Assembly: GCA_030615745.1 (NCBI GenBank)
Contig: JAUWYR010000056.1
Location: 1 to 11,889, forward strand
Direction of reading: 5' to 3'
DNA length: 11,889 bases
DNA from: Candidatus Zixiibacteriota bacterium
GTDB lineage: Bacteria; Zixibacteria; MSB-5A5; SM23-73-2
The notes under the pieces are model-generated. The model was not told the DNA's origin. It searched no databases and saw nothing but the letters and a program-made list of their open reading frames with translations. The translations under genes and the position numbers were made by a program. Positions 1 to 11,889 of this stretch are shown one piece after another; position 1 is the stretch's first letter; each line of letters begins with the position of its first letter.

Positions 1-1096
1 CGATGAAAACTGATCTAACCGGAGAATCGGTAAATATGCTCTCCCACATAATACTATCTCCATCATATTTGCTTCGAATTAAACCACCAGAATCACACGC
101 AGCCCAGACTGTTGAATCTATCGTGGCTATATCATAAACAAACCTTCCACTGCCAACTGTTTGTTCAGGAGTAAAAGATTCCCAGGTGTATCCAAAATCA
201 GTGGTTCTGTTAAATCCACCTCCATAGGGGACGGTATCACCATTTACCACCTCAAAGTATTGAGTTGCCACCCACAGGACCGTATCCAGAGTAGCGGTAT
301 CTATTGCTATATATTGTGAAGCCAATGCTGAGACTGAATTGTAATTCAGTCCAAAGGAGGTGTCATACTCAAACCAGGTTTTCCCTGTATCTTGAGTAAC
401 TTGTAGCCCATTTGATGTTCCCAACCACAGAAATCTTCCATCCCAGGCTATATCTGAAATTTCATTTTTTCTCATCTGATCCTTACAAGGAGAGGTATCA
501 GCCACAACTGAGAAGAATCTATTTCTTAAAAGGTTATAACTACCAGACTCATAATCTTCTTTGGCTAAAGAATCGACAAAGCTATTCTCCCAACTTTCCC
601 CTTCATCTCTGCTCCGGATCAACCCTCCGTACCAGCAAGCAGCCCAGATGGTCGAATCTTTTATTTCAAGATCGTAAGCCAGTTGTCCTACCCAGCTTGC
701 CTGGGGCGGCGTGAAACTCTTCCAGTTATCTCCACTATCTGTGGTAAGATTAAACCCAGCCCCATAAGGAATCACCTCACCTTCAAAAAGCTTAGTATAA
801 GAAACCGCTACCCAAACAGCTGAATCAGATATAGCCAAAGCAGATATTTGATTCTCATTAAGCCCATTTGACTTATCATAAGACCAAAAATCCCCATCTT
901 CAAACTTAGTCACTCCCCTTCCAGTTGCGATCCAGACAATATTTGAATCAGGGTCGTAAGCAAGGTCGTTAACCGTGTTTCCTCTAAGACCGGAAAGAGG
1001 CTCATCTAAGCTAATATTGATATAAGCAGAAGAAATTAAACTCAAAAAAATCAAAAAAACTAAAAAAATAACTATTGTCAAAATCTTTTTTTCCAT
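1..1096 (-). CDS. Secreted Asp-box beta-propeller protein (3' end outside window)
   Basis: This frame is open from an ATG at 1096 to the left edge (365 codons) with no stop, so the C-terminus is missing. The start is set by GGAGGG four bases upstream. Residues 1-24 form a Lys-rich, then strongly hydrophobic signal peptide, so the protein is exported. The rest is built of propeller-type strands (VWIAT, VWVAV, LWLGT, LWVAT) with Asp-box turns of the S/T-x-D-x-G-x-x-W type: TDSGDNW near 119-125, RDEGESW near 163-169, QDTGKTW near 235-241 and TDFGYTW near 299-305. Residues about 40-175 and 211-355 are two copies of one multi-blade unit; both contain IPYGAGF/VPYGGGF and WAAC..GGLIRS. Similar proteins are surface or secreted components, often with a C-terminal sorting tail that would lie beyond the edge. 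The exact ligand or enzyme activity cannot be read from this part. Confidence 0.85.
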   Translation of the reverse strand, partial: MEKKILTIVIFLVFLIFLSLISSAYINISLDEPLSGLRGNTVNDLAYDPDSNIVWIATGRGVTKFEDGDFWSYDKSNGLNENQISALAISDSAVWVAVSYTKLFEGEVIPYGAGFNLTTDSGDNWKSFTPPQASWVGQLAYDLEIKDSTIWAACWYGGLIRSRDEGESWENSFVDSLAKEDYESGSYNLLRNRFFSVVADTSPCKDQMRKNEISDIAWDGRFLWLGTSNGLQVTQDTGKTWFEYDTSFGLNYNSVSALASQYIAIDTATLDTVLWVATQYFEVVNGDTVPYGGGFNRTTDFGYTWESFTPEQTVGSGRFVYDIATIDSTVWAACDSGGLIRSKYDGDSIMWESIFTDSPVRSVFI

Positions 1097-1110
1097 TCAT
1101 CCCTCCATCT

Positions 1111-1140
1111 AATAAAAAACCGAACAGCTTATTTGCTCGG
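1111..1140 (-). terminator. Terminator-like hairpin in the leader of the propeller gene
   Basis: Read on the minus strand, CCGAGCA and TGTTCGG form a 7-bp stem (one G-U pair) with a 7-base loop, followed at once by six T and ATTAG. This is the shape of an intrinsic terminator. It ends only a few bases before the GGAGGG ribosome binding site at 1101-1106, leaving no room for a promoter between them. It may therefore act as an attenuator in the 5' leader rather than as the end of an upstream gene. Confidence 0.55.
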
Positions 1141-1232
1141 CAAAATTAAAAAGAAGTATCCTCTAAAGTGAACATACATTTCCAAGACCTCTTAAAAATC
1201 TTTAACAGTCTTTATAGGCACTCCTTTTTGAG

Positions 1233-1261
1233 CAATTAAAGAGTAAAACGAAATTTGTCAA
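1233..1261 (-). promoter_or_regulatory. Possible sigma-70 promoter for the propeller gene
   Basis: On the minus strand TTGACA (1256-1261) is followed after 17 bases by TAATTG (1233-1238). The -35 is perfect and the -10 is weak. It would give a leader of roughly 130 bases that includes the hairpin at 1111-1140. It is the best candidate in this gap, but AT-rich sequence makes chance matches easy. Confidence 0.35.
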
Positions 1262-1400
1262 GCATTTCTTTGAGAAACAGAGTTACTGCTTCGAGATTGA
1301 ATGTCTTTAGGCAAATCTTTCTAACTTATCACAATGCTTTTTTTGAAAGAATATTTTGCTCATTGAGTTTATACTCGACATTAAATGAAAATCATAAAAT

Positions 1401-1435
1401 CCTTAATCCCTGACCCTTGACCCTTTACCCTCTTC
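1401..1435. repeat. Five imperfect 7-bp tandem units
   Basis: The stretch divides into CCTTAAT, CCCTGAC, CCTTGAC, CCTTTAC and CCTCTTC, five neighbouring units of about CCYTNAC. It lies just downstream of the yjbQ stop. The core CCTGACCCTT also occurs at 7749-7758 inside a different repeat. No function is evident. Confidence 0.5.
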
Positions 1436-1469
1436 GGTCGTGGATTGAGATACGCAAAGATTAAAAATT

Positions 1470-1883
1470 TCATTCCCCAATTATTTTTATTATCACTCTT
1501 TTTCTTCTTTGTCCATCAAACTCACCATAAAAAATCTGTTGCCAGGGACCAAAATCCAATCTTCCCTCAGTAACTGGAATCATCACCTGATGATGCATCA
1601 AAAGATTTTTTAGATGGGCATCCCCATTGGTCTCTCCTGTTCGGTGATGTCTATAATCAGATCTATACGGAGCCAATTTCTCCAGCCATTCCTCAATATC
1701 AGCTAAAAGCCCACCCTCAGCATCATTTACAAATACTGAAGCAGTTATATGCATGGCGGATACCAAAACAAACCCCTCTTTAATTTTGCTTTTACCCAGA
1801 GTCTCTTCAACTTTATCTGTTATATTTATAAACTCACGATGTTTTTTGGTGTTAAACCAAAGATATTCAGTGTATGACTTCAT
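1470..1883 (-). CDS. yjbQ: YjbQ/UPF0047 family protein (secondary thiamine-phosphate synthase type)
   Basis: A 137-residue protein of the normal length for the YjbQ/COG0432 family, which forms small cytosolic oligomers. The family signatures are in order: [13 protein letters not shown] near 42-54, YRHH at 77-80, GDAHLKNLL near 87-95, then [17 protein letters not shown] near 102-118 and [10 protein letters not shown] near 121-130. His45, His79/80 and His90 are in the positions usually proposed to bind metal. Some family members show weak thiamine-phosphate synthase activity, but the physiological role is unsettled, so the name is by family only. The ATG at 1883 is supported by AGGAGA at 1889-1894. 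It follows the patatin-like gene on the same strand, but a terminator-like hairpin lies between them, against its ribosome binding site. Confidence 0.93.
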
Positions 1884-1898
1884 AACTTTCTCCTTTCA

Positions 1899-1926
1899 AA
1901 GAAAACGCAGGTTATTCTAACCTGCG
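1899..1926 (-). terminator. Intrinsic terminator-like hairpin just before yjbQ
   Basis: Perfect 9-bp stem CGCAGGTTA/TAACCTGCG with a 3-base loop. On the minus strand it is followed by TTTTCTTT and then directly by the yjbQ ribosome binding site. It could end transcripts of the patatin-like gene about 145 bases upstream. Since no promoter fits between it and yjbQ, yjbQ would then depend on read-through, so an attenuator role is also possible. Confidence 0.6.
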
Positions 1927-1985
1927 GTAAAATCTCTATTATCCGAAATTAAGTTTTTTTAAACGGATGTCAAATAAAATATCTT

Positions 1986-2042
1986 CTCAAACCTGAAGGT
2001 TTGAGTTACTATTACAAATCGTAACTCAGGGCTTTAGCCCTG
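1986..2042. repeat. Intergenic palindromic repeat with alternative stems
   Basis: Three inverted repeats overlap. CTCAAACC/GGTTTGAG (1986-2005) and CAGGGC/GCCCTG (2027-2042) are hairpins with 4-base loops. GAGTTAC (2003-2009) pairs with GTAACTC (2021-2027), which would compete with the outer bases of both. The layout resembles short dispersed palindromic repeats found between genes in many uncultured bacteria. It sits between the patatin-like gene stop and yjbQ. Confidence 0.6.
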
Positions 2043-2070
2043 ATTTGAATACTTAACTTCCACTCCAAAA

Positions 2071-2928
2071 TCAATACCCGAACACCTCAGCCGCAGTCTC
2101 TTTCCCTATTTTAATCGCCTGACGGATTTTATCGGGATGGAAGTCAAGGGTATCCATAAAATACTCAGCCGGCTCAACTATCTTTAAATCTATATAGCGA
2201 TGTTCCCCGTCATCTTTCAGATGAACATTATACCACTCACAGTTCTCGATATCGGTTATGTAAACCTCGTTAGCCAATATATCAAAGGTTCGGATTATGA
2301 TCTCCAGAAGATTTCCGTATTTTCTTTTTCCCGGTTGCACCCAGCGGGGAGAAGCCAAAACCATCACAATCTCATCTGCTCCCGCATCAATTGCATCCTT
2401 TAAAGGAGTGATGTTTCTCACTCCGCCATCCACCACCTGTAAATCATCTGCCGAGATGTTTATGGGTTTAAACATTATGGGGATACTGGCTGAGGCTAAA
2501 AGCATCTGTTCGAATGAGGAATGGGTCGGGCTTATTGGTTTATACTGACCAGTGGTAAAGGAGACCACTCCAATTTTCAAGATCTTCCCTTTACTGGTAA
2601 AATTCTCGATAATCTTTTTTCTATCAACATATTTCTCAATGAGCTCCTTAAGCGGTTTATTATCGTTAAGGCTATCCTTCTTGCCAAGTATTACACTTAA
2701 CCAGCTGTACTTTTTGTATATGTCCTCGTTTCCCCGTATCCCCAGCCAGAGCTCTTTCAATCTCTGAAACTCACCCTGAGCCAACAAAGTGGCGTTCAAA
2801 GCGCCAACTGATACCCCACATACGATATCAAAATCCAGTTTACCCTTTTCATGGAGATATTCGAGCACGCCAAACTGAAAAGCACCCTTGGCACCACCAC
2901 CTGACAATACTATCCCCCTTTTAGGCAT
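2071..2928 (-). CDS. Patatin-like phospholipase (RssA-type serine hydrolase)
   Basis: A 285-residue cytoplasmic acyl hydrolase of the bacterial patatin family. All catalytic elements are visible: the oxyanion-hole loop SGGGAKG at 9-15, the nucleophile elbow GVSVG at 38-42 (Ser40), and the DGG motif at 167-169 giving the catalytic Asp of the Ser-Asp dyad. The segment after it, RNITPLKDAIDAGADEIV, is typical of the family. Expected reaction is hydrolysis of ester bonds in phospholipids or other acyl lipids; the true substrate cannot be told from sequence. There is no signal peptide. The ATG has AGGAGGG five bases upstream. Transcription probably starts from its own promoter at 3018-3046, since a terminator separates it from the gene upstream. 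Confidence 0.93.
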   Translation of the reverse strand: MPKRGIVLSGGGAKGAFQFGVLEYLHEKGKLDFDIVCGVSVGALNATLLAQGEFQRLKELWLGIRGNEDIYKKYSWLSVILGKKDSLNDNKPLKELIEKYVDRKKIIENFTSKGKILKIGVVSFTTGQYKPISPTHSSFEQMLLASASIPIMFKPINISADDLQVVDGGVRNITPLKDAIDAGADEIVMVLASPRWVQPGKRKYGNLLEIIIRTFDILANEVYITDIENCEWYNVHLKDDGEHRYIDLKIVEPAEYFMDTLDFHPDKIRQAIKIGKETAAEVFGY

Positions 2929-3017
2929 AAAACCCTCCTGGTTAAGGTTTAAAAGGAATGAACTTTTTTACCCTCATTGAAAATCTGAAAAAAAATTAAT
3001 AAGGTCAATTTTAGTTA

Positions 3018-3046
3018 ATATTAGAAGAGATTTCTGATTTTGTCAA
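3018..3046 (-). promoter_or_regulatory. Sigma-70 promoter of the patatin-like gene
   Basis: On the minus strand a perfect TTGACA (3041-3046) lies 17 bases before TAATAT (3018-3023). The predicted start is about 80 bases upstream of the ATG at 2928, and a terminator of the previous gene lies just upstream, which is the expected arrangement. Confidence 0.7.
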
Positions 3047-3062
3047 GCAAAACTTTTTGCTG

Positions 3063-3098
3063 AAAAATAAAAAAAGCCAGGTCTTTTCGACCTGGCTT
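3063..3098 (-). terminator. Intrinsic terminator of the exported peptidase-like gene
   Basis: On the minus strand a perfect 10-bp stem AAGCCAGGTC/GACCTGGCTT with loop GAAAA runs into a long T-rich tract (about TTTTTTTATTTTT). It is about 20 bases after the stop codon of the gene ending at 3120. Confidence 0.88.
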
Positions 3099-3119
3099 AA
3101 GCCAGAAAACCTTCTAAAA

Positions 3120-4211
3120 CTACTTCACCACAAATTTTTCCAACACCTCTATCACCTCATCATCAAATACAAAATCCTTTCCCGATTTTTTAGCCGCCTC
3201 TTGATAGGTGATGACAAATCTAACCGGATCGTTTCTGCACTCCTTGATCTTAGCTATTCCTAAGCTATTCTCGATAACCTGAGCCATCTTATAACCCAAC
3301 ACATGATAAGAGGCAGTCTTAATGAAATTTTCTGTTATCTCTTTTTGAATCTCCTCTTTGGATTTGCCTTCAACTAAAGAATGGGATAAGATTTGATTAG
3401 CTAAGGCAAAATATTTGTTTAAATTATTTTTCATCCCTGCAAATTTTTTGTGTACAGCGTTCATTATATCATCTTGTTTCTTTGGTTTGGAATACAAAAC
3501 AGAACCAGCCAAATTGGATACACCCATACTGCACAATAGATGCAGAAGTCTTTGAACACTTTTAAATCCCTGATCATTCACATCTATGAATTTGACCCTC
3601 TCACCTAAATGATATATCTCTCTTGCTAAAAGAGAAGTTAAGTTTTTCTGACCTAAGATATAACCGGAGATCACATCAACATAAATTTTGTTATTGTATC
3701 TTGAGGCTCCCAAAGAATGTCCTTCAAAAAGATAGACAATTTTAATATTTTTAGGCAAATCACCCTCATCCAGATACTTCTGAGCAGAGACCAAAGCTTT
3801 GCTCCCTAAATTGGATTTCTCAAGCAAAGAACAAAAAGCCTGAATAGAGTCTAAATTGTTGTAGGCGTAGACAAAAAATTTAACCTCATAAGGAAACTTT
3901 TTGATTATTTTAGACTTGGTCGGCTCCTGTTCAAATCCAAAAGATGTTTTAAGAATTGTTTTAAACTTTAGCTCATCAATTCCAGCATCCTTTTTCAAAT
4001 ACTCGAAAGCTTTTTGATAACCCGCACACAAAGAAGCTTTCTTCCACAAAGTTTCATCGAATCTCCTTCTCTTTTTGACTAAAGTCAAAAGCTCATTTAT
4101 AGATTTCCAGCAGGAGAAATCATTTATTACCTTTGTTGGCAAAGCTTCTGCTTTGAGAGGCAAAAAAGAGAGGGAAATTAAAGTGACAATTAGTAATTTT
4201 AACTTGCTCAA
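3120..4211 (-). CDS. Exported protein of unknown function with degenerate zinc-peptidase-like motif
   Basis: A 363-residue protein with an N-terminal signal peptide (basic MSKLK, hydrophobic to about 19, likely cleavage near AEA at 21-23), so it is periplasmic or secreted. I do not recognise the family with certainty. Residues about 160-240 resemble putative gluzincin domains such as DUF5700 or DUF2268: FEGHSLGASRYNNKIYVDV, then LLAREIYHLGE, then a helix ending LLCSMGVSNLAGS, where active relatives usually carry HExxH and a Glu-Gly-hydrophobic-Ala motif. Here HExxH reads RExxH (Arg197, Glu198, His201) and the later Glu is absent, so catalysis is doubtful. The start is TTG, chosen because AGGAGG lies four bases upstream and the signal peptide begins there. 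It has its own probable promoter and a strong terminator, so it is likely a single-gene unit. Confidence 0.8.
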   Translation of the reverse strand: MSKLKLLIVTLISLSFLPLKAEALPTKVINDFSCWKSINELLTLVKKRRRFDETLWKKASLCAGYQKAFEYLKKDAGIDELKFKTILKTSFGFEQEPTKSKIIKKFPYEVKFFVYAYNNLDSIQAFCSLLEKSNLGSKALVSAQKYLDEGDLPKNIKIVYLFEGHSLGASRYNNKIYVDVISGYILGQKNLTSLLAREIYHLGERVKFIDVNDQGFKSVQRLLHLLCSMGVSNLAGSVLYSKPKKQDDIMNAVHKKFAGMKNNLNKYFALANQILSHSLVEGKSKEEIQKEITENFIKTASYHVLGYKMAQVIENSLGIAKIKECRNDPVRFVITYQEAAKKSGKDFVFDDEVIEVLEKFVVK

Positions 4212-4242
4212 GCTTCCTCCTTTGTTAGAAAAACCTCTTTTT

Positions 4243-4270
4243 AATTTAAGAAAAAAACGTAAAAAGTCAA
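4243..4270 (-). promoter_or_regulatory. Possible promoter of the exported peptidase-like gene
   Basis: On the minus strand TTGACT (4265-4270) is followed after 16 bases by TAAATT (4243-4248). It would give a leader of about 25-30 bases before the TTG at 4211. The spacer is a T-rich tract, so confidence is moderate. Confidence 0.42.
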
Positions 4271-4311
4271 ACGAAAAAATTCGATTTTCTTGAAAAAAAC
4301 CGCAAAAAAGC

Positions 4312-4330
4312 GTCGGGCATAAAGCCCGAC
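4312..4330. repeat. Hairpin repeat with ATAAA loop, copy 1
   Basis: Perfect 7-bp stem GTCGGGC/GCCCGAC around loop ATAAA. The 18 bases from 4313 recur exactly at 4488-4505. No T-run follows on either strand, so it is not an obvious terminator. Confidence 0.75.
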
Positions 4331-4344
4331 TCTACCTTTATCTC

Positions 4345-4411
4345 CGCGTAGCGGCCTGCCCGGCCAGGGAGGGTTTATCCCTCCGCAGAGCCATAAAGGC
4401 TCTGCTACGCG
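4345..4411. repeat. Composite cruciform repeat with an inserted 15-bp module
   Basis: An outer stem CGCGTA/TACGCG (4345-4350 with 4406-4411) encloses two hairpins: GGAGGG/CCCTCC with loop TTTAT (4368-4384), and GCAGAGCC/GGCTCTGC with loop ATAAA (4385-4405). A 15-bp GC-rich block at 4354-4368 interrupts the left arm. Without it the left hairpin becomes a perfect GCGGAGGG/CCCTCCGC stem. Confidence 0.7.
4354..4368 (+). repeat. 15-bp module GCCTGCCCGGCCAGG
   Basis: Identical in reverse complement to 10387-10401. At both places, taking out exactly these 15 bases restores a simpler underlying sequence: a perfect hairpin arm here, and an uninterrupted repeat there. Confidence 0.7.
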
Positions 4412-4487
4412 TTCTTAAATTATTTCTCTTAGCTTAAATGACCTAAATATTTGGTCTATCTTTAAACTTCTTCAAAACTTCAAAACA

Positions 4488-4505
4488 TCGGGCATAAAGC
4501 CCGAC
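4488..4505. repeat. Hairpin repeat with ATAAA loop, copy 2
   Basis: Exact 18-base copy of the hairpin at 4313-4330 (TCGGGC stem, ATAAA loop). It is flanked by different bases, so only the hairpin itself is repeated. Confidence 0.7.
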
Positions 4506-4545
4506 GCTCCGGTAACCATAAACCATCTACTATCCACTATAAACC

Positions 4546-4583
4546 AAATTGTCCCTCCGCCAGAGGCGGGGGGGGGACAATTT
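4546..4583. repeat. Nested palindrome: outer AAATTGTCCC stem holding a GC-rich module
   Basis: The outer arms AAATTGTCCC (4546-4555) and GGGACAATTT (4574-4583) are perfect. Inside sits TCCGCC-AGA-GGCGGG (4556-4570), a 6-3-6 palindrome of the same class as the modules at 10427-10456, followed by extra G (a nine-G run at 4568-4576). It lies just downstream of the IPTL gene stop and could also serve as its terminator. Confidence 0.6.
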
Positions 4584-4617
4584 AGCGGTGTGTTAACTCG
4601 CCTCAACTACTAAATGC

Positions 4618-5298
4618 TCATACAGTGCCAACTTTTCTTCTCCTCATAATCATATACACGGAGAAACCAGCCATTGCAAGTATCAAAAGAATCAGGCCCC
4701 AATGGGTGATGGTAGGCATACAGCAGAGACGCTCGATAGTGGCAGTGGTGTTCAATTGAAGCGTGGAGGTAACAGGATCCCAACTAACGCTATCTACATC
4801 CACCACAACTACTTTCACATACTGAAGCTCTGCATCGGCATTTAAAAGAGTGAACGTTCCTCTCTCAACAAAATAAATTCTACTATCATCTGAAAGAACA
4901 ACTCCCTCTAACCCCTCAATTCTAATGACTCCTGGATGCACTGGGTAAAGAAACGTGGCAGAGCGACGGATATCGACGCAATCGCTTGGACCAGTATATG
5001 TTCCTTGCAAATCCAGGGTATATGTATCAGTGTTCGGTCCATCGCGCCTCACCTGTCCAGTTGAGATAATGGTGTCTCCATCCTCGTAAATCATAGTAGT
5101 CACAAAATCATAACCATCCGGACTTAGTGTGCCGAGATTTACACCACCGCAGAGTTCGAGTGCTGTCTTTGGATGGTGTTTCGTTTTCCATGACTTTCCA
5201 TAACATATCGGGTTGTAACCACTTGGGATGCTTGTGAACACGATGGTAGTTTGGGAGAATCCAGTCCATAAGTCGGTTATGCTAGTGCATTGTTTCAT
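4618..5298 (-). CDS. 5'-truncated surface protein with IPTL-type C-terminal sorting signal
   Basis: The frame codes for 226 residues. Its first ATG lies inside the inverted end of the neighbouring IS, so MKQC and part of the fifth codon come from the IS. There is no Shine-Dalgarno sequence, and there is no signal peptide as expected for this protein class. It is best read as the 3' part of a longer gene. The body is beta-rich and of unknown function. The C-terminus is clear: CC at 192-193, PTITHWG at 195-201, a hydrophobic segment at 202-217, and the basic tail RRRK at 219-222. This matches the IPTL-CTERM protein-sorting signal (a PTL-x-x-WG-like motif, one transmembrane helix, an Arg cluster), used for surface anchoring or processing. 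The flank beyond the far end of the IS has an in-frame stop close to the junction, so the missing 5' part is not simply across the insertion. Probably a non-functional remnant. Confidence 0.65.
   Translation of the reverse strand: MKQCTSITDLWTGFSQTTIVFTSIPSGYNPICYGKSWKTKHHPKTALELCGGVNLGTLSPDGYDFVTTMIYEDGDTIISTGQVRRDGPNTDTYTLDLQGTYTGPSDCVDIRRSATFLYPVHPGVIRIEGLEGVVLSDDSRIYFVERGTFTLLNADAELQYVKVVVVDVDSVSWDPVTSTLQLNTTATIERLCCMPTITHWGLILLILAMAGFSVYMIMRRRKVGTV
5285..5298 (+). repeat. Left terminal inverted repeat of the IS
   Basis: Matches the right end in 13 of 14 bases when inverted. It contains an outward-facing ATG (minus strand, 5296-5298) that opens the truncated IPTL frame. Confidence 0.82.
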
Positions 5299-5305
5299 TA
5301 TTTAG

Positions 5306-5334
5306 TTGACTTAAATTAATATTTATGCTATACT
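5306..5334 (+). promoter_or_regulatory. Transposase promoter
   Basis: TTGACT (5306-5311), a 17-base spacer, then TATACT (5329-5334): a strong sigma-70 type match inside the IS. The start would be about 20 bases before the GGAGGA ribosome binding site at 5351-5356. Confidence 0.7.
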
Positions 5335-5361
5335 TGTTCTCAAAAAGAGAGGAGGACAGGT

Positions 5362-6402
5362 ATGGCAAGAAAAGCTCCAACAATTTTGTTGACGGTGGAG
5401 GAAAGGAAGGCGATTCAGTCTATTATCCGGAAGAGTAGTTCTGAACAACGGATGGTTTTGCGGGCAAAAATAGTTTTGTTAGCATCTCAGGGTTTGCGGA
5501 ATGACGAGATTATGAAGCAATTGAAGGTGAGTAAACCTGTAGTCATCAAATGGAGGAGTCGTTTTGCTCAAGATAGATTGAAGGGTCTTGAGGATGCCCC
5601 CCGTCCAGGGAAACCCAGAGTGTATAGTCCGGAGGTACGAATCAAGGTTGCTGCGGAGGCTTGCAACCCTCCTGAAGGACAGACGCATTGGAGTACCCGT
5701 GATCTGGCTAAGCACATAGGTGGAATAAGCCACGTGGCAGTCCATCGGATTCTCTCTGCCGAGAGGATCAAGCCGCATCTGTATAAAATGTGGAAAGATA
5801 GTTCTGATCCAGACTTTACCTCCAAAATGATCGAGGTTGTGGGATTGTATATGGACCCTCCCGAAAATGCAGTGGTGTTGAGCGTAGATGAGAAGACGGC
5901 AATTCAGTCCTTGGGGCGTCCCAAACAGAACAAACCAGTTAGACCAGGTCAAGTAGAAAAAATCAACCATGAATATATTAGATACGGAACCAAATCTTTG
6001 ATTGCTGCCCTGGCGGTTCATGAAGGAACCGTCAAAGGGGAGTGTTTCGACCGGCATAGCCATAAAGAATTCTTAATTTTCCTTAAGAATCTTGCCCGGC
6101 AATACCCGGACAAAGAGCTCCACTTAATTGTGGATAACCTCAGCCCCGCCTACGGCGGGGAAAAGATTCGAAGATGGCTTCAACGCCACTCCAGAGTTCA
6201 ATTCCATTTCACTCCCACCTATGCTTCGTGGCTTAATCAAATTGAACTTTGGTTTAGTATTCTGGCTCGAAAAGTGATTCGTCGTGGGGTTTTCACCTCA
6301 AAAGAAGACCTTGTAAATAAAATCATGGAATTCATCAAGCGATACAATCGAGAAGCTAAACCTTTTCGATGGACATATACAGGCGATCCATTAACAATAT
6401 AG
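5362..6402 (+). CDS. IS630-family DDE transposase
   Basis: A 346-residue transposase that cuts and joins the IS ends at TA targets. Residues about 10-75 contain the first helix-turn-helix (GLRNDEIMKQLKVSKPVVIKWRSRF), about 85-140 a second winged-helix-like part (STRDLAKHI..ISHVAVHRIL). The catalytic core has the expected triad: Asp176 in LSVDEKTAIQSL, Asp258 in LHLIVDN, and Glu295 in SWLNQIELWF, with MRPGQ-like and YIRYGT motifs between. The start is well supported by GGAGGA five bases upstream. Oddity: residues 262-266 (PAYGG) are coded exactly by a 15-bp GC-rich palindrome. Family members I recall have a His-containing stretch such as THKHP just after Asp-Asn, so one conserved His is lost here. 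The frame is intact, but activity may be affected. Confidence 0.92.
   Translation: MARKAPTILLTVEERKAIQSIIRKSSSEQRMVLRAKIVLLASQGLRNDEIMKQLKVSKPVVIKWRSRFAQDRLKGLEDAPRPGKPRVYSPEVRIKVAAEACNPPEGQTHWSTRDLAKHIGGISHVAVHRILSAERIKPHLYKMWKDSSDPDFTSKMIEVVGLYMDPPENAVVLSVDEKTAIQSLGRPKQNKPVRPGQVEKINHEYIRYGTKSLIAALAVHEGTVKGECFDRHSHKEFLIFLKNLARQYPDKELHLIVDNLSPAYGGEKIRRWLQRHSRVQFHFTPTYASWLNQIELWFSILARKVIRRGVFTSKEDLVNKIMEFIKRYNREAKPFRWTYTGDPLTI
6145..6159 (+). repeat. In-frame 15-bp palindrome inside the transposase
   Basis: CCCGCC-TAC-GGCGGG is a perfect 6-3-6 palindrome (extendable by one base pair each side) occupying exactly five codons, PAYGG. It has the same size and form as the intergenic modules at 4556-4570 and 10442-10456, differing from the reverse complement of the former in three positions. 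Confidence 0.6.
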
Positions 6403-6414
6403 GTAAATTGATTT

Positions 6415-6428
6415 ATGAAACAGTGCAC
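6415..6428 (-). repeat. Right terminal inverted repeat of the IS
   Basis: Mirror of the left end with one mismatch, followed by the TA target at 6429-6430. The outward ATG here leads only to a short frame that stops after a few codons. It lies 13 bases beyond the transposase stop. Confidence 0.82.
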
Positions 6429-6456
6429 TAGTAACTAATTAAAAAAAGGGAAAGAT

Positions 6457-6975
6457 ATGTATCATAGAATAAGGATTTTCAGTTCAGTTTTTATAATAGT
6501 TTTCTTCTTGCTGACGATTTTCAGTAGCATTTTTGCGGACTCATTTAGAGGCAAGCCGATTTTGTCAGGAACTTGGAGAAACCAAGAAATAGAATATGTT
6601 GCAGGGGAGACACTGGTAAAGCTAAAGCCGGGTGTAAGTCCGTCGCAGATTGAGCAACTACTTGATGAAAATGAAGGTTTTCTGATTGGAGATTTTGATA
6701 AATACCGATGGGGTCTTGTGGGTTTGATACCCTTTAATCCCCGGACTATAATCAAATATAATCTTCCTCAAAAGACAAAAGTAACGATAAAAATATACAA
6801 CATCTTGGGTCAATTGGTAAAAACATTGGTGGATGAGGTTCAGGGATCTGGTGTGCATCAGATTGCCTGGAAGGGTGAAAATAATTCAGGGCAGAAAGTT
6901 TCGAGCGGGATATACTTCTACAGGATTCAAACCGAAGACTTTGTTGAGGTTAAAAAGATGATATTTATAAAATAG
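6457..6975 (+). CDS. Mini-protein: protease-type signal and propeptide fused to type IX secretion C-terminal tail
   Basis: Of 172 residues, 1-28 are a signal peptide. Residues about 44-88 (EYVAGETLVKLKPGVSPSQI onward) look like the start of the propeptide of secreted subtilisin-like proteases (fervidolysin type). From residue 91, IPFNPRTIIKYNLP to the C-terminus KKMIFIK is a FlgD-like type IX secretion sorting domain with its NILGQLVKTLVDE, WKGENNSGQKVSSGIYFYR signatures. The catalytic domain that should lie between is wholly absent, and the two ends meet in frame around residues 88-92. So this is either an internally deleted protease gene or a small secreted product in its own right. The ribosome binding site is weak (AAGGGA). 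Only 26 bases separate the start from the IS, so its original promoter may be lost. The next gene follows after a few bases. Confidence 0.75.
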   Translation: MYHRIRIFSSVFIIVFFLLTIFSSIFADSFRGKPILSGTWRNQEIEYVAGETLVKLKPGVSPSQIEQLLDENEGFLIGDFDKYRWGLVGLIPFNPRTIIKYNLPQKTKVTIKIYNILGQLVKTLVDEVQGSGVHQIAWKGENNSGQKVSSGIYFYRIQTEDFVEVKKMIFIK

Positions 6976-6981
6976 GAGAAG

Positions 6982-7542
6982 ATGATGGAAAAAAAGGTTT
7001 TGCTATTGGTTATTTGCTTTTTCTTTTTATTTGCCGCTTTTTTGAATGGGGCTGAGCTAAAGATAGAAGTTATCAAAACAGCTACGATCGATTCAACAAA
7101 CAAATCTTTTTATGGCAGATTGCTTTTTAAGTTCGATCTTCCTTCTCAGCTTGAAGAAGGCTTCATAGACTATGCGGAGATAATTTTTAAATCTGAGCCA
7201 AATATGAGCAATGCTCGTACAGTTGTTTTAGGAGCATATCCTTTGACCAGAGACTGGGAGGAAAACGATGTAGCGTGGGATTCACCCTGGACCGATGAAG
7301 GGGGGGATTATATCGATTCCCTTGGTTTGTCTGGACTTCTATTAAAGTCAAAGGATTACAGGATTGCTTTAGATATTACTCAGATAGTAAGGCTTTGGGT
7401 TAAAAAATCATTATCCAATTATGGCCTAGTTTTAATCCCCTTGGAATCTGAATATTCTTTAAAGTTACTTCATCATCCCGATTTACCCGATGATGTTAAT
7501 GCGGAGGTAAGAATATTCTTTACCGCAAAAGAGAAGAAGTAA
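6982..7542 (+). CDS. Secreted DNRLRE/CBM96-like domain protein
   Basis: A 186-residue exported protein with a signal peptide covering residues 1 to about 23 (hydrophobic LLLVICFFFLFAAF, cleavage near NGA). The rest resembles a single DNRLRE-type (TGF-propeptide-like, CBM96-like) jelly-roll module: FYGRLLFKFDLP near 43-54, IDYAEIIFKS, then TRDWEENDVAWDSPW near 88-103 and the final LDITQIVRLWV near 125-135 with YGLVLIP after it. Such modules occur in surface proteins and are proposed to bind carbohydrate; binding here is inferred only. GGAG lies 3 bases before the first ATG (6982) and 6 before the second (6985), so the true start may be 6985. The ribosome binding site overlaps the stop of the upstream mini-protein gene, indicating translational coupling in a two-gene operon that ends at a hairpin near 7575. 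Confidence 0.75.
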   Translation: MMEKKVLLLVICFFFLFAAFLNGAELKIEVIKTATIDSTNKSFYGRLLFKFDLPSQLEEGFIDYAEIIFKSEPNMSNARTVVLGAYPLTRDWEENDVAWDSPWTDEGGDYIDSLGLSGLLLKSKDYRIALDITQIVRLWVKKSLSNYGLVLIPLESEYSLKLLHHPDLPDDVNAEVRIFFTAKEKK

Positions 7543-7574
7543 AGAAAATTTAGAAAAATCTTAAAGTGGGTTGG

Positions 7575-7600
7575 AGCCACCTGATAGATGGCTTTTGCTT
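7575..7600 (+). terminator. Probable terminator of the mini-protein/DNRLRE operon
   Basis: AGCCACCT pairs with AGATGGCT (one mismatch) around loop GAT, followed by TTTTGCTTTG. It lies about 30 bases after the stop codon at 7542. Confidence 0.5.
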
Positions 7601-7651
7601 TGCCTGCCATTTAATTCTGAAACATTAAACCTAACTTTTCGTATTTTTAAC

Positions 7652-7679
7652 TTGAAAAAATAAAATTTTAGGTTATTAT
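7652..7679 (+). promoter_or_regulatory. Possible sppA promoter
   Basis: TTGAAA (7652-7657), 16-base spacer, TATTAT (7674-7679). It would give a leader of about 230 bases. The sequence is very AT-rich, so this is a weak call. Confidence 0.35.
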
Positions 7680-7718
7680 TATGTCTAAACAGAGAGCCAG
7701 TTATGGATAAAAAATTAA

Positions 7719-7785
7719 GAATTTGATATTTGTGTAAAAAGCTTTACTCCTGACCCTTAAAAAATGTGTCAACACTGAGGTCAAA
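7719..7785 (+). repeat. Dispersed repeat, uninterrupted copy
   Basis: About 65 bases that align with 10354-10467 once three 15-bp blocks are removed from the latter. Shared core pieces include AGCTTTACTCCTGAC (one change), CTTAAAAA, GTGTCA and ACTGAGGTC. This copy has none of the GC-rich blocks. Confidence 0.65.
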
Positions 7786-7917
7786 AGACAAAACAAAAAA
7801 CCGTCTAAATGAAATTGGATTTTTTTATCCGGTGTCGTAAAAAGGTTTTCGCTAAAGAGATTGATAAAACGAAAAAATTTTTTGTAAAAACTTAAACTTC
7901 AAAAAAGGAGATGTGAT

Positions 7918-10329
7918 ATGACCAAAAAAATCCTTTTAGCTTTTTTGCTCTTATCCTTTTTGTCCTTTTCCTTTGCTTTCTCCCAAGAGGTTCCAACCTC
8001 AGGCTTTTTATCTCCATATTCTTCTGTTGCTCAAGCAGATGATGCTTTATCCATTGGATTTAACCCTGCTGGTCTTGGATGGGAAAGAGAAAACCAAACT
8101 TATCTTTTACACTCCTATACTGATTCGAGTTTCAAAGGGAACACCGGGATTTTCCTTTCAGCAGGAAACTTAGGATTTTCTGTTGAGTGGTTAGGTTACC
8201 AACTTGAGGAGTGGTATCGGAAATATACTATAGCGGGAGGATTTAAACTTGTTGATAAACTGTATTTCGGCTCAAGTTACAGCTGGTTTGGGTCCAAGAT
8301 AAAAGAATACGATGACCTCTCCTCCTGGAACATCGGATTTTTAGCCAGGCTTTGTCCTTTTTCATCCATTGGATTTGTGGTTAAAGACTTGAATCGCCCT
8401 AAATTTGGAGAAGAGATGATCGATAGGTCTTATCATTTAGGGGTAGCTTTAAGACCTTTATCAGATAGGATTACTTTCTCAGTGGACGGCTTGCTTTACG
8501 AATATCAGAAAATAAAGGATTTAAAAACAAGATACAGGGCAGAGATTGAAATTTGGGATGGTCTAATCCTATCAGGGGATATAGACAACGATGGAAACTT
8601 GGGGATCAACGCAAGGATAAATTTACCCCGGGCAGGTTTCGGTTCCTATCACCATTTCAAAAAAGATAATAAAACTGAGGGAGTCGTTTACCTCAACACT
8701 TCTAAGGACAGGTACAGGAGCTGGTTTCAGCCCAAAAATAATTTTTTGGAGTTGAAACTTTCTGGAGAGATTTTAGAGGAGCCGAAGAGGTTTTTCATAT
8801 TCGGTCCCAAAAGGAAAAGTATGTTTGAATTGATTAACACAATCCATAAAGCCAAAGAGGATCGGACGGTTAAAGGAATTTTAATTAGGCTCGAACCTCT
8901 GGACATTGGCTGGGCTAAAGCTCAGGAGATTAGAGAGGCGATCTTGGATTTCAGAAAGACCGGGAAGAAGGTTTTGTGTTTTATGGAGCTTGGCTCTGAT
9001 AAAGAGTATTATTTAGCTTGTGCCTGTGATAAAATCATAATGGCTCCCTCTGGTTATTTAGGTTTTGATGGCTTGGCATCAGAGGTGACTTTCATTAAGG
9101 GGACTTTGGACAAGTTAGGAATAAAGGCTGAACTTGAACATATCGGTGATTATAAAACTGCGTCTGATCTTGTAACTCGGGATAAGATGTCTGATGCCCA
9201 TAGAGAGGTGGTGAATTCCATTTTAGATGATTTCTATTTTCAGTTGACCGAGGGCGTGGCTGAATCAAGAGGATTAAGCCGGGATGAAGTTAAATCCGCA
9301 ATCGATAATGGTCCTTACACCGCAAATGAAGCTTTTGAAGCAGGGTTGGTTGACACTTTGGCTTATTATGATGAGCTCGAAGATATGGCTGAAAAAATGA
9401 TTGTGGAAAAGCCTCATAAGATAAAATTTAAAGAATATTCTGAAAGGAAATATTATCAATACTCCTGGGCAATTCCACCTAAGATAGCAGTTATTTTTGC
9501 CACCGGGATGATTCTTTCTGGAGAAAGTGATGATAATTTTCTTTTTGGGAAAATAATGGGAGCAGAGACAATAGCCTCTGCCATAAAAAAAGCCAGAGAG
9601 GACAAATCGATAAAAGCTATAGTTTTCAGGGTTGACAGTCCTGGTGGCTCGGGTATTGCCTCTGATGCGATATGGAGGGAGATAGGGAGGACTAAAGGCA
9701 AAAAACCATTTGTGGTCTCGATGTCTGATGTGGCTGGTTCCGGCGGGTATTTTATCTCCTGCCTTGCTGATACTATTTTTGCTATGCCAGCAACCTATAC
9801 CGGTTCTATTGGTGTGATCTCAGGTAAATTTGATCTCTCAGGACTTTACAAAAAAATCGGCTTTTCAAAAGAGACTGTGAAAAGGGGGGAACATGCGGAT
9901 TTTTTCACCTCCACCAGGAGTTTTACCAAAGAAGAAAGGGAGATCGTTAAACGCCAAATAAAAGAGTTCTACGACGATTTCGTGAGAAAGGTCTCTGAGG
10001 GAAGAGAAATACCTTTTGATTCTGTTCACCAGATTGCTCAGGGCAGGGTCTGGACTGGTAATCAGGGTAAGGAAAATGGCTTGGTAGATGAATTAGGTGG
10101 ATTGAGATTGGCGATAGCTTGTGCTAAGAAGATGGCAGGTATTTCTCAGGAAAAGGAGATAAAAATAGTTACTTTACCTAAGAGAAGATGGGCTCTCTCC
10201 CTGGGAATTGGGCAGATTTTTTCCAAATCCTTAGAATTTGAACCTCTTTTTAAAGAGCTGGAGAAAATTGAATTTTTAGAGGACGAAAGAATTTTGTTTT
10301 TAGTTCCCTATCAGATAGAGATCGAGTAG
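7918..10329 (+). CDS. sppA: Signal peptide peptidase SppA (67K type) with N-terminal outer-membrane-barrel-like domain
   Basis: An 803-residue protein. Residues 1-22 are a signal peptide. Residues about 28-270 resemble the N-terminal part of PorV/UPF0164-type outer-membrane proteins, with ADDALSIGFNPAGLG at 40-54 followed by alternating beta-strand sequence. Residues about 277-780 are a complete tandem-domain SppA, the membrane serine protease that digests leftover signal peptides. The catalytic Lys is Lys413 in GDYKTA of the first repeat; the nucleophile is Ser608 in SDVAGSGGYF of the second. Their spacing (195) is close to that of E. coli Lys209/Ser409. RVDSPGG at 571-577 and TGSIGVISG at 628-636 are also present. 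Classical SppA is about 620 residues with a membrane anchor; here the anchor is replaced by the barrel-like domain, suggesting outer-membrane placement. GGAG lies 7 bases before the ATG. Followed by a composite repeat. Confidence 0.92.
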   Translation: MTKKILLAFLLLSFLSFSFAFSQEVPTSGFLSPYSSVAQADDALSIGFNPAGLGWERENQTYLLHSYTDSSFKGNTGIFLSAGNLGFSVEWLGYQLEEWYRKYTIAGGFKLVDKLYFGSSYSWFGSKIKEYDDLSSWNIGFLARLCPFSSIGFVVKDLNRPKFGEEMIDRSYHLGVALRPLSDRITFSVDGLLYEYQKIKDLKTRYRAEIEIWDGLILSGDIDNDGNLGINARINLPRAGFGSYHHFKKDNKTEGVVYLNTSKDRYRSWFQPKNNFLELKLSGEILEEPKRFFIFGPKRKSMFELINTIHKAKEDRTVKGILIRLEPLDIGWAKAQEIREAILDFRKTGKKVLCFMELGSDKEYYLACACDKIIMAPSGYLGFDGLASEVTFIKGTLDKLGIKAELEHIGDYKTASDLVTRDKMSDAHREVVNSILDDFYFQLTEGVAESRGLSRDEVKSAIDNGPYTANEAFEAGLVDTLAYYDELEDMAEKMIVEKPHKIKFKEYSERKYYQYSWAIPPKIAVIFATGMILSGESDDNFLFGKIMGAETIASAIKKAREDKSIKAIVFRVDSPGGSGIASDAIWREIGRTKGKKPFVVSMSDVAGSGGYFISCLADTIFAMPATYTGSIGVISGKFDLSGLYKKIGFSKETVKRGEHADFFTSTRSFTKEEREIVKRQIKEFYDDFVRKVSEGREIPFDSVHQIAQGRVWTGNQGKENGLVDELGGLRLAIACAKKMAGISQEKEIKIVTLPKRRWALSLGIGQIFSKSLEFEPLFKELEKIEFLEDERILFLVPYQIEIE

Positions 10330-10386
10330 AAAAGGATTTTAATACTTTCAGGTGAATTTAGATAGTTGCGTCAGAAGCTCTACTCC

Positions 10387-10401
10387 CCTGGCCGGGCAGG
10401 C
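10387..10401 (-). repeat. 15-bp module, inverted copy of 4354-4368
   Basis: Reads CCTGGCCGGGCAGGC on the plus strand, the exact reverse complement of 4354-4368. Removing it joins TACTCC to TGAC, as found uninterrupted at 7745-7754. Confidence 0.7.
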
Positions 10402-10426
10402 TGACGCTTAAAAAGGTGTCAGGACT

Positions 10427-10441
10427 TCCACCGAAGGTGGA
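10427..10441 (+). repeat. 15-bp palindromic module TCCACC-GAA-GGTGGA
   Basis: A perfect 6-3-6 palindrome. It lies directly against a second module of the same form; removing both joins GGACT to GAGGTC, matching ACACT-GAGGTC of the uninterrupted copy. Confidence 0.65.
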
Positions 10442-10456
10442 TCCGCCTCTGGTGGA
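10442..10456 (+). repeat. 15-bp palindromic module TCCGCC-TCT-GGTGGA
   Basis: A 6-3-6 palindrome with one G-T pair, closely similar to the module at 4556-4570 read in reverse complement. Adjacent to the previous module with no spacer. Confidence 0.65.
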
Positions 10457-10547
10457 GAGGTCCTGACATAACATAAAAAATTTCTGCTTGTTCGTTGTTT
10501 GCACGAATGGAATTCGCGCTACAATTTTGTATTATATTTCTTTTTGG

Positions 10548-10573
10548 AAAGAACCACTAAGAGGGCTCTTTTT
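10548..10573. terminator. Weak hairpin between convergent genes
   Basis: AAAGAACC and GGCTCTTT can pair (one mismatch on the plus strand, a G-U pair on the minus strand) with an 8-base loop; on the plus strand five T follow within and after the stem. It overlaps the stop codon of the GGDEF-like gene and could end the sppA transcript. Low confidence. Confidence 0.28.
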
Positions 10574-11066
10574 ACTGCTGACAAATGAAATTGTTTTGAA
10601 CGAAATTTAAAAATTGTTTTTCTCCTGAATCCTCTTCAGGAAAAGAGACAATTTTTGTCTTTATCTTTAAGTTCTGAGAAGCTTTGCTTTTTGGTCCATT
10701 GATTGAGTTTTCGATAAAATATTTTATCTCCTGGTTTAATCTTTTTGATAAACAAAATGCACCATCTTTGGGGGTCTCAAATAATAAAAGCGCTAATCTT
10801 TGATCTTCCAATCCCGAGACAATATCTGTTTCCCTTACAGAGATTCTAATGAACTTTTCTAAGTCGTGGAAAAACTTTTTGGGATTTTTATAATTTTTGA
10901 CCAATCCATTCAAGCTCTTAAAATCTAAGAGTATCAGAGATAAAAATTCAGAGTATCTTTTAGCCCTCCTAAGCTCTTCGGTGGCTCTCAAGCCAAAGTT
11001 TTTGTGAGAGCGGTAAAGTCTTTTGAGTGGGACTCCTTTTGCCTTTTTTGTTTCCAATAGGTTCAT
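10572..11066 (-). CDS. Degenerate GGDEF-like domain protein
   Basis: A 164-residue soluble protein with no signal peptide. Residues about 28-120 follow the fold pattern of a GGDEF (diguanylate cyclase) domain: TEELRRAKRYSEFLSLILLDF at 29-49, FHDLEKFIRISVRETDIVSGLEDQRLALLLFET at 66-98 and a final RLNQEIKYF helix. The signature itself is lost: where GG(D/E)EF should be, the sequence reads LEDQR, and the usual metal-binding Asp-x-Asp-x-F-K is reduced to LLDFKSLN. It therefore should not make cyclic di-GMP and may instead be a binding or signalling partner. It lies downstream of the sigma-54 regulator on the same strand, 193 bases away, so a shared pathway is plausible. The ATG has AGGG six bases upstream. 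Confidence 0.68.
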   Translation of the reverse strand: MNLLETKKAKGVPLKRLYRSHKNFGLRATEELRRAKRYSEFLSLILLDFKSLNGLVKNYKNPKKFFHDLEKFIRISVRETDIVSGLEDQRLALLLFETPKDGAFCLSKRLNQEIKYFIENSINGPKSKASQNLKIKTKIVSFPEEDSGEKQFLNFVQNNFICQQ

Positions 11067-11116
11067 GATGAACCCTTTTTCAGATTCTTAACTAATTTAA
11101 TTCGTATATCGGTGTC

Positions 11117-11182
11117 GATGCTCGTATCGAAACTCGAGGCTGGTCTTTTTTTCTTTAGTTCGAGTTTCCAGCTTCGAGCATC
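11117..11182. repeat. Long imperfect inverted repeat
   Basis: GATGCTCG (11117-11124) pairs with CGAGCATC (11175-11182), and AAACTCGA (11130-11137) with TCGAGTTT (11160-11167), leaving a T-rich loop. It lies between the regulator stop and the GGDEF-like gene and may be a transcript-processing or terminating hairpin, or a dispersed repeat. Confidence 0.5.
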
Positions 11183-11259
11183 CTCACCAGCCTCGCCAAC
11201 CTTCAACGAGTTTCAACCTTTTAAATTCAGCTTGCAAAACAGTCAACTTTTTAATACAA

Positions 11260-11889
11260 TCATTGATCTAATTTATATTCCTTTATCTTATAAAGCAAGG
11301 AGCGGTAGCTTATCTCCAGAAGCTTTGCTGCTTTTCTTCTGTTCCAGTTAGTTTTGTTCAAGACATCTGATATAAGCTTTTTCTCCTGCCGGGCAACAGT
11401 TTCGGATATCCTTTTTTTCAAGGATAAAGTTTTTTCGGATGTGGGTTTTATCTCCTCTTCAGGGAAAGCTCTCTCCCCGGTTTCCTTTGATAGAATTTGA
11501 GCTATTATATTCTCATCTTCTCGTACCACTATCTGCTTGATCAAATTCTCCAACTGTCTTACATTCCCAGGCCAATCGAATTCCTCCAATTTTTTCATAC
11601 TTTGAGATGAAAGCGGACCGAAACTTCTATTGTAAAGAGCATTATATTTTTTCAAAAAGAACTCGACCAGAAGAGAAATGTCCTCTTTTCTTTCCCTTAA
11701 AGAAGGAAGATTTATTGTGATCTCGTTAAGACGGTAGAAAAGGTCATTCCTTAAGGTCTTTTCTTTCAAAGCCTCCTCTAAGTCACGATTTGTGGCACAT
11801 ACTATCCTGACATCGACCTTTATGTTTTTCACACCACCGACTCTCACGAACTCATGCTGTTCTAATACCTGAAGGAGCTTGGATTGAAG
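11260..11889 (-). CDS. Sigma-54-dependent Fis-family regulator, C-terminal part (5' end outside window)
   Basis: The frame is open to the right edge, giving 210 codons; an internal ATG at 11847 is not the real start, because typical AAA+ sequence (LQSKLLQVLEQHEFVRVGG) continues upstream of it. What is present is the second half of an NtrC-type AAA+ domain: VDVRIVCATNRDLEEAL (Walker B/sensor I side), LRNDLFYRLNEITINLPSLRERKEDI (arginine-finger region and sensor II approach), and FDWPGNVRQLENLI. A C-terminal Fis-type helix-turn-helix follows (NRRKAAKLLEISYRSLLYKIKEY). Such proteins bind upstream enhancers and use ATP to open sigma-54 promoters; the GAFTGA loop and any receiver domain lie outside the window. 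The target genes cannot be read from here. The GGDEF-like gene follows downstream. Confidence 0.93.
   Translation of the reverse strand, partial: LQSKLLQVLEQHEFVRVGGVKNIKVDVRIVCATNRDLEEALKEKTLRNDLFYRLNEITINLPSLRERKEDISLLVEFFLKKYNALYNRSFGPLSSQSMKKLEEFDWPGNVRQLENLIKQIVVREDENIIAQILSKETGERAFPEEEIKPTSEKTLSLKKRISETVARQEKKLISDVLNKTNWNRRKAAKLLEISYRSLLYKIKEYKLDQ

Follow-up and report, generated by a model that had tools for sequence, protein, structure and literature searches.

The DNA analysed here is an 11,889-nucleotide stretch of the genome of Candidatus Zixiibacteriota bacterium (contig JAUWYR010000056.1, positions 1 to 11,889; hereafter the window). Two of its hairpins are broken by the same 15-bp sequence, raising the question of whether so short a block can move through a genome as a unit and, if so, how its insertion sites are chosen.

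Two copies in the window and their hosts

The block, GCCTGCCCGGCCAGG, is exact at both places and lies in opposite orientations, at 4354-4368 on the forward strand (copy 1) and at 10387-10401 on the reverse strand (copy 2). The sequence-only reading had claimed that removal of the same 15 bases repairs both host sequences. Deletion of copy 1 yields GCGGAGGG-TTTAT-CCCTCCGC, a perfect stem as described. Deletion of copy 2 yields GCGTCAGGAG-TAGAG-CTTCTGACGC on the reverse strand, a 10-bp stem containing one G.T wobble.

Copy 1 has C at position 6 (4359) and is followed by G at 4369, the +1 target base. Its host, read from the sequence, spans 4345-4411 and is intact elsewhere in the genome. It is made up of an outer stem (CGCGTAGC, 4345-4352; GCTACGCG, 4404-4411), a first inner hairpin (GCG, 4351-4353, plus GAGGG, 4369-4373; loop TTTAT; CCCTCCGC, 4379-4386) and a second hairpin (AGAGCC, 4387-4392; loop ATAAA; GGCTCT, 4398-4403). 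Copy 1 interrupts the 5' arm of the first inner hairpin, and empty twins of this type of site are present in the genome (host family gtagcg^gaggg, where ^ marks the junction). The host as a whole is a composite repeat that could form a three-way junction, with two hairpins enclosed in one outer stem, and the genome contains many copies of it, in either orientation.

The copy 2 host is a hairpin on the reverse strand (10368-10407; GCGTCA^GGAGTAGAGCTTCTGACGC) with the block in its 5' arm. It lies approximately 40 bp past the stop codon of a gene encoding an SppA-like signal peptide peptidase (7918-10329, forward strand), just upstream of copy 2. The closest named relative found for the SppA-like protein is from Zixibacteria SM23_73_2 (73% identity), and the named nearest relatives found are Zixibacteria. 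At the orthologous loci of two named Zixibacteria, the gene is not followed by a block and the intergenic sequence is not similar; these loci are consequently uninformative with regard to copy 2. The window also contains an IS630-like transposase gene (approximately 5362-6402, within 5283-6430) located between flanking coding fragments, with terminal inverted repeats around ctagtgcactgtttcat.

A 15-bp insertion dispersed through the genome

The block was sought throughout the draft assembly (2.28 Mb, 74 contigs). This count, which the sequence-only reading had proposed, returned 85 exact copies (41 forward, 44 reverse), and the total rises to 140 when up to two mismatches are allowed (the 85 exact copies plus about 55 near ones). 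The reversed block, used as a control pattern, has no exact copy in the same genome, and shuffled 15-mers gave neither exact nor one-mismatch matches in an 807-kb sample of the genome (38% G+C). For the two copies in the window, 1 of 200 shuffles had at least two matches at up to two mismatches. Most copies have C at position 6 of the block, and a second form has T there; other variation among copies is concentrated at the centre (position 10) and is less common in the CCTG/CAGG arms. The second form, GCCTGTCCGGCCAGG, is present in the genome as 13 exact copies, almost all of which precede A (loci L151, L039, L137, L123, L129, L261, L267-L270 and L273). No reading frame of the block contains a stop codon. 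The block is without coding capacity and, as a mobile element, would be non-autonomous.

The boundaries of the block were probed at 96 sites: after its deletion, the newly joined sequence (10 bases from each side, at most one mismatch allowed) was looked for in a sample comprising about 35% of the genome. Removal of exactly 15 bp recreates a 20-mer that exists intact elsewhere for 49 of the 96 sites, with 165 such empty twins in total in the sample, while removal of 1 bp more or less, or of 2-3 bp more, finds twins for only 0-6 sites. Hosts with empty twins include ggggat^gataacatcccc, ccaggtca^ggggacctgg, cgcaacct^gaaggttgcg, gagaccctc^gtggtctc, gcgtca^ggagtagagctcctgacgc and gtagca^gagcctttatggctc, among others. 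Within tight host families, the short inserts are always this block or a point variant of it, 15 bp in length, and no other insert was seen at the host cores of these families. Short target duplications, which the sequence-only reading had proposed looking for, were not found: the left flank is absent from the right side of the block, indicating that nothing is duplicated and that the net gain is 15 bp. A 14-bp element accompanied by a 1-bp G duplication was also considered and is ruled out by the copies that precede A, which retain the G at the left end.

The base 5' of the block is variable. Among copies with no more than one mismatch, the block is followed by G in 87 cases and by A in 14. 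About 50 distinct short contexts (-3 to +4) are represented. The block is thus a clean 15-bp insertion without target duplication, situated just before a purine. The sequences on either side of the copies are for the most part unrelated, and the block is not always embedded in one longer conserved repeat, an arrangement that would have made it part of that repeat. In one case (L061) the host is the block itself, in reversed orientation: cctggccg[block]ggcaggc. Together with the presence of copies on both strands, the rebuilding of repeats at 49 of 96 sites upholds the proposal that the block moves or is copied as a unit, in either orientation.

Insertions were also found in genes, whose names were read from the sequences without a family search. 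In-frame blocks occur in PyrK (L124:15142-15969), in LpxH (L141:11281-12060), twice in an IS481-like transposase (L140), twice in an IS256-like transposase (L012) and in an integrase-core gene (L042); weaker, diverged matches are present in RsmE-, RsbU-, helicase- and M23-like genes. PyrK and LpxH were compared with approximately 20 relatives. In the protein alignment, the five block residues are missing from LpxH of the nearest relative of the same genus and from the other aligned orthologues, one of which is exceptional in having an unrelated insert of its own. In PyrK, the block falls in a loop of variable length, and the residues it encodes are found in no relative. Such five-residue inserts entering conserved genes illustrate how protein variation arises naturally. 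Open reading frames of at least 150 amino acids cover 77% of the sample yet contain only 7 of 56 sites; insertions in genes are depleted and the block is mainly extragenic.

A search for the exact 16-mer in 132 genomes of the phylum found 83 copies in the source genome, 10 in G033, 5 in G021 (a genome that is 52% complete), 2 in G012 and one in each of three others, and none in almost all of the genomes searched. G033 belongs to another family of the class and carries the block in a different host, gtaggggttt^gattaatcaaaccc. The empty form of this host gives 31 and 32 matches on the two strands, which correspond to about 35 places since the pattern is nearly palindromic. The exact identity of the block across families, in different hosts, suggests either horizontal spread or strong constraint.

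Hairpin polarity and the target base

The placement of the block relative to hairpins (defined as a perfect stem of at least 5 bp with a loop of 3-9) is strongly biased. Hairpins enclose 67 of 101 block sites, as compared with 13% of control positions. Over a dozen hairpin families host the block. Because this excess partly reflects the spread of hosts within families, the independent events are fewer than the copies. The junction is located in the loop (38), the 5' arm (28) or the 3' arm (1), so that 66 of the 67 sites are in the loop or 5' arm, while control positions fall about equally in the two arms. The polarity of the block within hairpins is fixed.

A second regularity relates position 6 of the block to the +1 base. 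The combinations observed are C:G (94), T:A (14) and A:T (1), with the exceptions C:A (2) and T:G (1), giving a strong association in the table of C or T by G or A (Fisher p = 8e-15). When each short context is counted once, the numbers are C:G 50, T:A 9, A:T 1, C:A 2 and T:G 1 (two-by-two p = 2.6e-8). The host family stem-T^NAA-stem is instructive in this regard. In empty hairpins of this family, the variable position is A (59) or G (38), indicating that the +1 base is a property of the host site that the form of the block matches; filled sites combine the C-block with G (17) or the T-block with A (11), with no crossing. This complementarity suggests, by analogy, a guide-like pairing as in IS200/IS605 elements. 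Position 6 may either select the site by pairing or be copied from it, as the statistics fit both. Of the three exact copies of the T-type in a sister genome (G001), two precede G, and the pairing rule would not be strict there unless a T.G wobble is allowed. The commonest dinucleotides at -2,-1 are CA (25), TT (23), CT (23) and AT (8), followed by others.

The symmetry of the block itself is limited to CCTG/CAGG. Its candidate fold, CCTG-CCCGGC-CAGG, has at most one 4-bp stem and a low predicted stability (-2 kcal/mol). When the next base is included, the predicted low-energy pairings include CCTG/CAGG and CCC/GGG, the latter of which would pair position 6 with +1.

Mode of movement and relation to known elements

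Three explanations dispense with a mobile block. The block could be a fixed internal part of mobile REP-like host repeats, its copies arising by host spread and gene conversion. The IS256-like transposase gene, which has the block at the identical place in three copies, fits such an origin, as does the hairpin with arms resembling one host family that flanks a Y1 gene. This explanation is contradicted for the genome as a whole, where the arms differ between hosts while the block and its boundaries are identical in about 50 contexts that include unrelated hairpin families, genes and the block itself; we judge it improbable overall, and it could hold inside single host families. More improbable still is a deletion scenario, in which an ancestral block was excised as exactly 15 bp to leave the empty sites. 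The coexistence of empty and filled forms does not by itself give the direction of change, but the block residues are missing from LpxH and PyrK in about 20 relatives, and almost all of the phylum's genomes that were searched lack the exact 16-mer. Least credible of all is an assembly or library artefact derived from an adapter or linker. The data do come from a single draft assembly of 74 contigs; however, such an origin would not account for covariation of a block base with a host base, for confinement to the 5' half of hairpins or for the occurrence of the block in genomes of other families.

As a mode of movement, single-strand transposition of the IS200/IS605 type fits the fixed ends, the absence of duplication, the single polarity within hairpins and the pairing between element and target. 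We consider it probable that the block is a 15-nt mobile element that moves as folded single-stranded DNA (the CCTG-CCCGGC-CAGG hairpin) into hairpin targets. The targets would be single-stranded, such as hairpin loops extruded on the replicating strand, and an enzyme acting in trans would align position 6 with the target base, so that C-type elements would take N^G sites and T-type elements N^A sites. The best candidate for this enzyme is an HUH/Y1 single-strand transposase of the RAYT/IS200-IS605 kind, as these use hairpin substrates, need no target duplication and employ DNA-DNA guide pairing. A fuller version, against which we lean slightly, is that a single stem-loop of 15 nt constitutes the complete transposition unit, moved in trans as single-stranded DNA with position 6 as a one-base guide that would direct the natural C and T forms to G and A sites. 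Base-pair-guided single-strand targeting is established for IS608, in which altering the guide alters the target (PMC5934647), and a guide-like choice of CT/CA sites has been proposed for TnpA-REP (PMC8266576).

Another route of movement, which we regard as rather unlikely yet the most serious of the alternatives, is that short single-stranded DNA or reverse-transcribed RNA is integrated at hairpin nicks by a non-Y1 enzyme (an integrase, a reverse transcriptase or end-joining); position 6 would then be a copy of the target base and not its selector. The block shows no link to Y1 enzymes: Y1 transposases are present in all 13 genomes searched, block-free ones included, they are not more frequent in the source genome than in its relatives, and the three Y1 genes of the source genome have no block within 1.2 kb. 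The presence of a Y1 transposase was therefore rejected as a correlate of the block, as it does not discriminate among the 13 genomes. Complementarity between position 6 and +1 suits templating as well as selection, and retrotransposition has been suggested for the GC clusters of yeast mitochondria (PMC4478555). Base-exact boundaries and an invariant block at 85 sites, however, are not expected of random capture or end-joining, and the T-type copies that precede G would require later mutation under templating.

The block appears nearest in kind to the small dispersed repeats (SDRs) of cyanobacteria and to REPs, but is smaller. SDRs insert within other repeats and are 21-27 bp in length. To our knowledge, no complementarity to a target base has been noted for them. 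They are reportedly the subject of Elhai et al. 2008, 'Very small mobile repeated elements' (doi 10.1101/gr.074336.107), as tiny, dispersed and seemingly mobile repeats. Both SDRs and the block are dispersed and nested in repeats; SDRs are about 20 bp or more, compared with 15 bp. PMC2884548 gives the cyanobacterial SDRs as some 20 bp, and they are also taken up in the citing papers PMC3116915 and PMC3733652.

REPs and REPINs, which are associated with RAYT (TnpA-REP), are palindromes of 20-40 bp bearing a GTAG or CGTC tag (PMC3116915, PMC3733652, PMC8266576). Like them, the block is hairpin DNA that is dispersed, mostly extragenic and sometimes located in palindromes or genes, in a genome that has Y1 genes; moreover, the dinucleotides most often found 5' of the block are CA, TT and CT, and TnpA-REP has its cleavage sites at CT/CA. 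In contrast to REPs, it is exactly 15 bp, has no GTAG/CGTC tag and has variable flanks. Nor does it lie beside the Y1 genes found, whereas host-like hairpins with GTCAGGAG arms flank one of them. Hairpins GTCAGGAGC/GCTCCTGAC at L130:12039-12061 and 12636-12658 flank a Y1 (RAYT-like) transposase gene, and the arms of the copy 2 host family, GTCAGGAG/CTCCTGAC, are the same as those of the hairpins beside this gene. Consequently, it is the hosts that look like the REPs of a REPtron.

The block resembles IS200/IS605 elements in inserting without target-site duplication, and the statistical covariation of position 6 and +1 as base pairs recalls the choice of target by guide pairing in IS608 (PMC5934647). 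As a full transposon, IS608 carries a hairpin at each end, and its guide is a tetranucleotide lying outside these hairpins (PMC5934647), whereas in the block the covariation links a single base within the predicted loop to a single base 3' of the insertion. The block further differs from these elements in lacking subterminal hairpins at both ends, tnpA or a deleted remnant of it, and a fixed short sequence on its 5' side; the strict position is +1. By analogy, it behaves like a miniature guide-directed single-strand transposon. It is distinguished from MITEs by the absence of target-site duplication and by inverted symmetry confined to CCTG/CAGG. The Rickettsia palindromic element is similarly tolerated as an in-frame insertion in unrelated genes, as the block is in PyrK, LpxH and transposases, but is about 150 bp (PMC10969869), in contrast to the mainly extragenic 15-bp block. 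The GC clusters of yeast mitochondria, such as GC42, are likewise short GC-rich hairpins spreading in an AT-rich genome; GC42 is a 42-bp class with AG/ACT direct repeats resembling target duplications (PMC4478555), of which the block has none.

At 15 bp and with insertions at about a hundred places, the block is among the smallest mobile elements described, and it hints at target choice by very short elements. The block bears on the question of how REPs, SDRs and mitochondrial GC clusters move, as it offers base-exact ends and about a hundred natural insertions with empty twins. Since a natural change in the element accompanies a change in the target base, this question can be reduced to a simple oligonucleotide assay.

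Several minor observations concern the arrangement and distribution of copies. Head-to-tail tandem blocks are present at L019:1501-1545 (three blocks, the middle one being GCCTGCCCGTTCAGG), and G021 contains head-to-tail copies at C10:5798-5827 and C47:3879-3908. A viral origin was considered and set aside, as the 64 viral stretches with a match have a single one apiece and these resemble chance hits in a large collection. Finally, hybrid sites, in which the left and right host halves joined by the block come from two different families, occur in L009 and L028 and, on the reverse strand, at L123 (16153), L145 (9518), L018 (1726) and L146 (14955 and 15053); they resemble products of recombination between two copies of the block.
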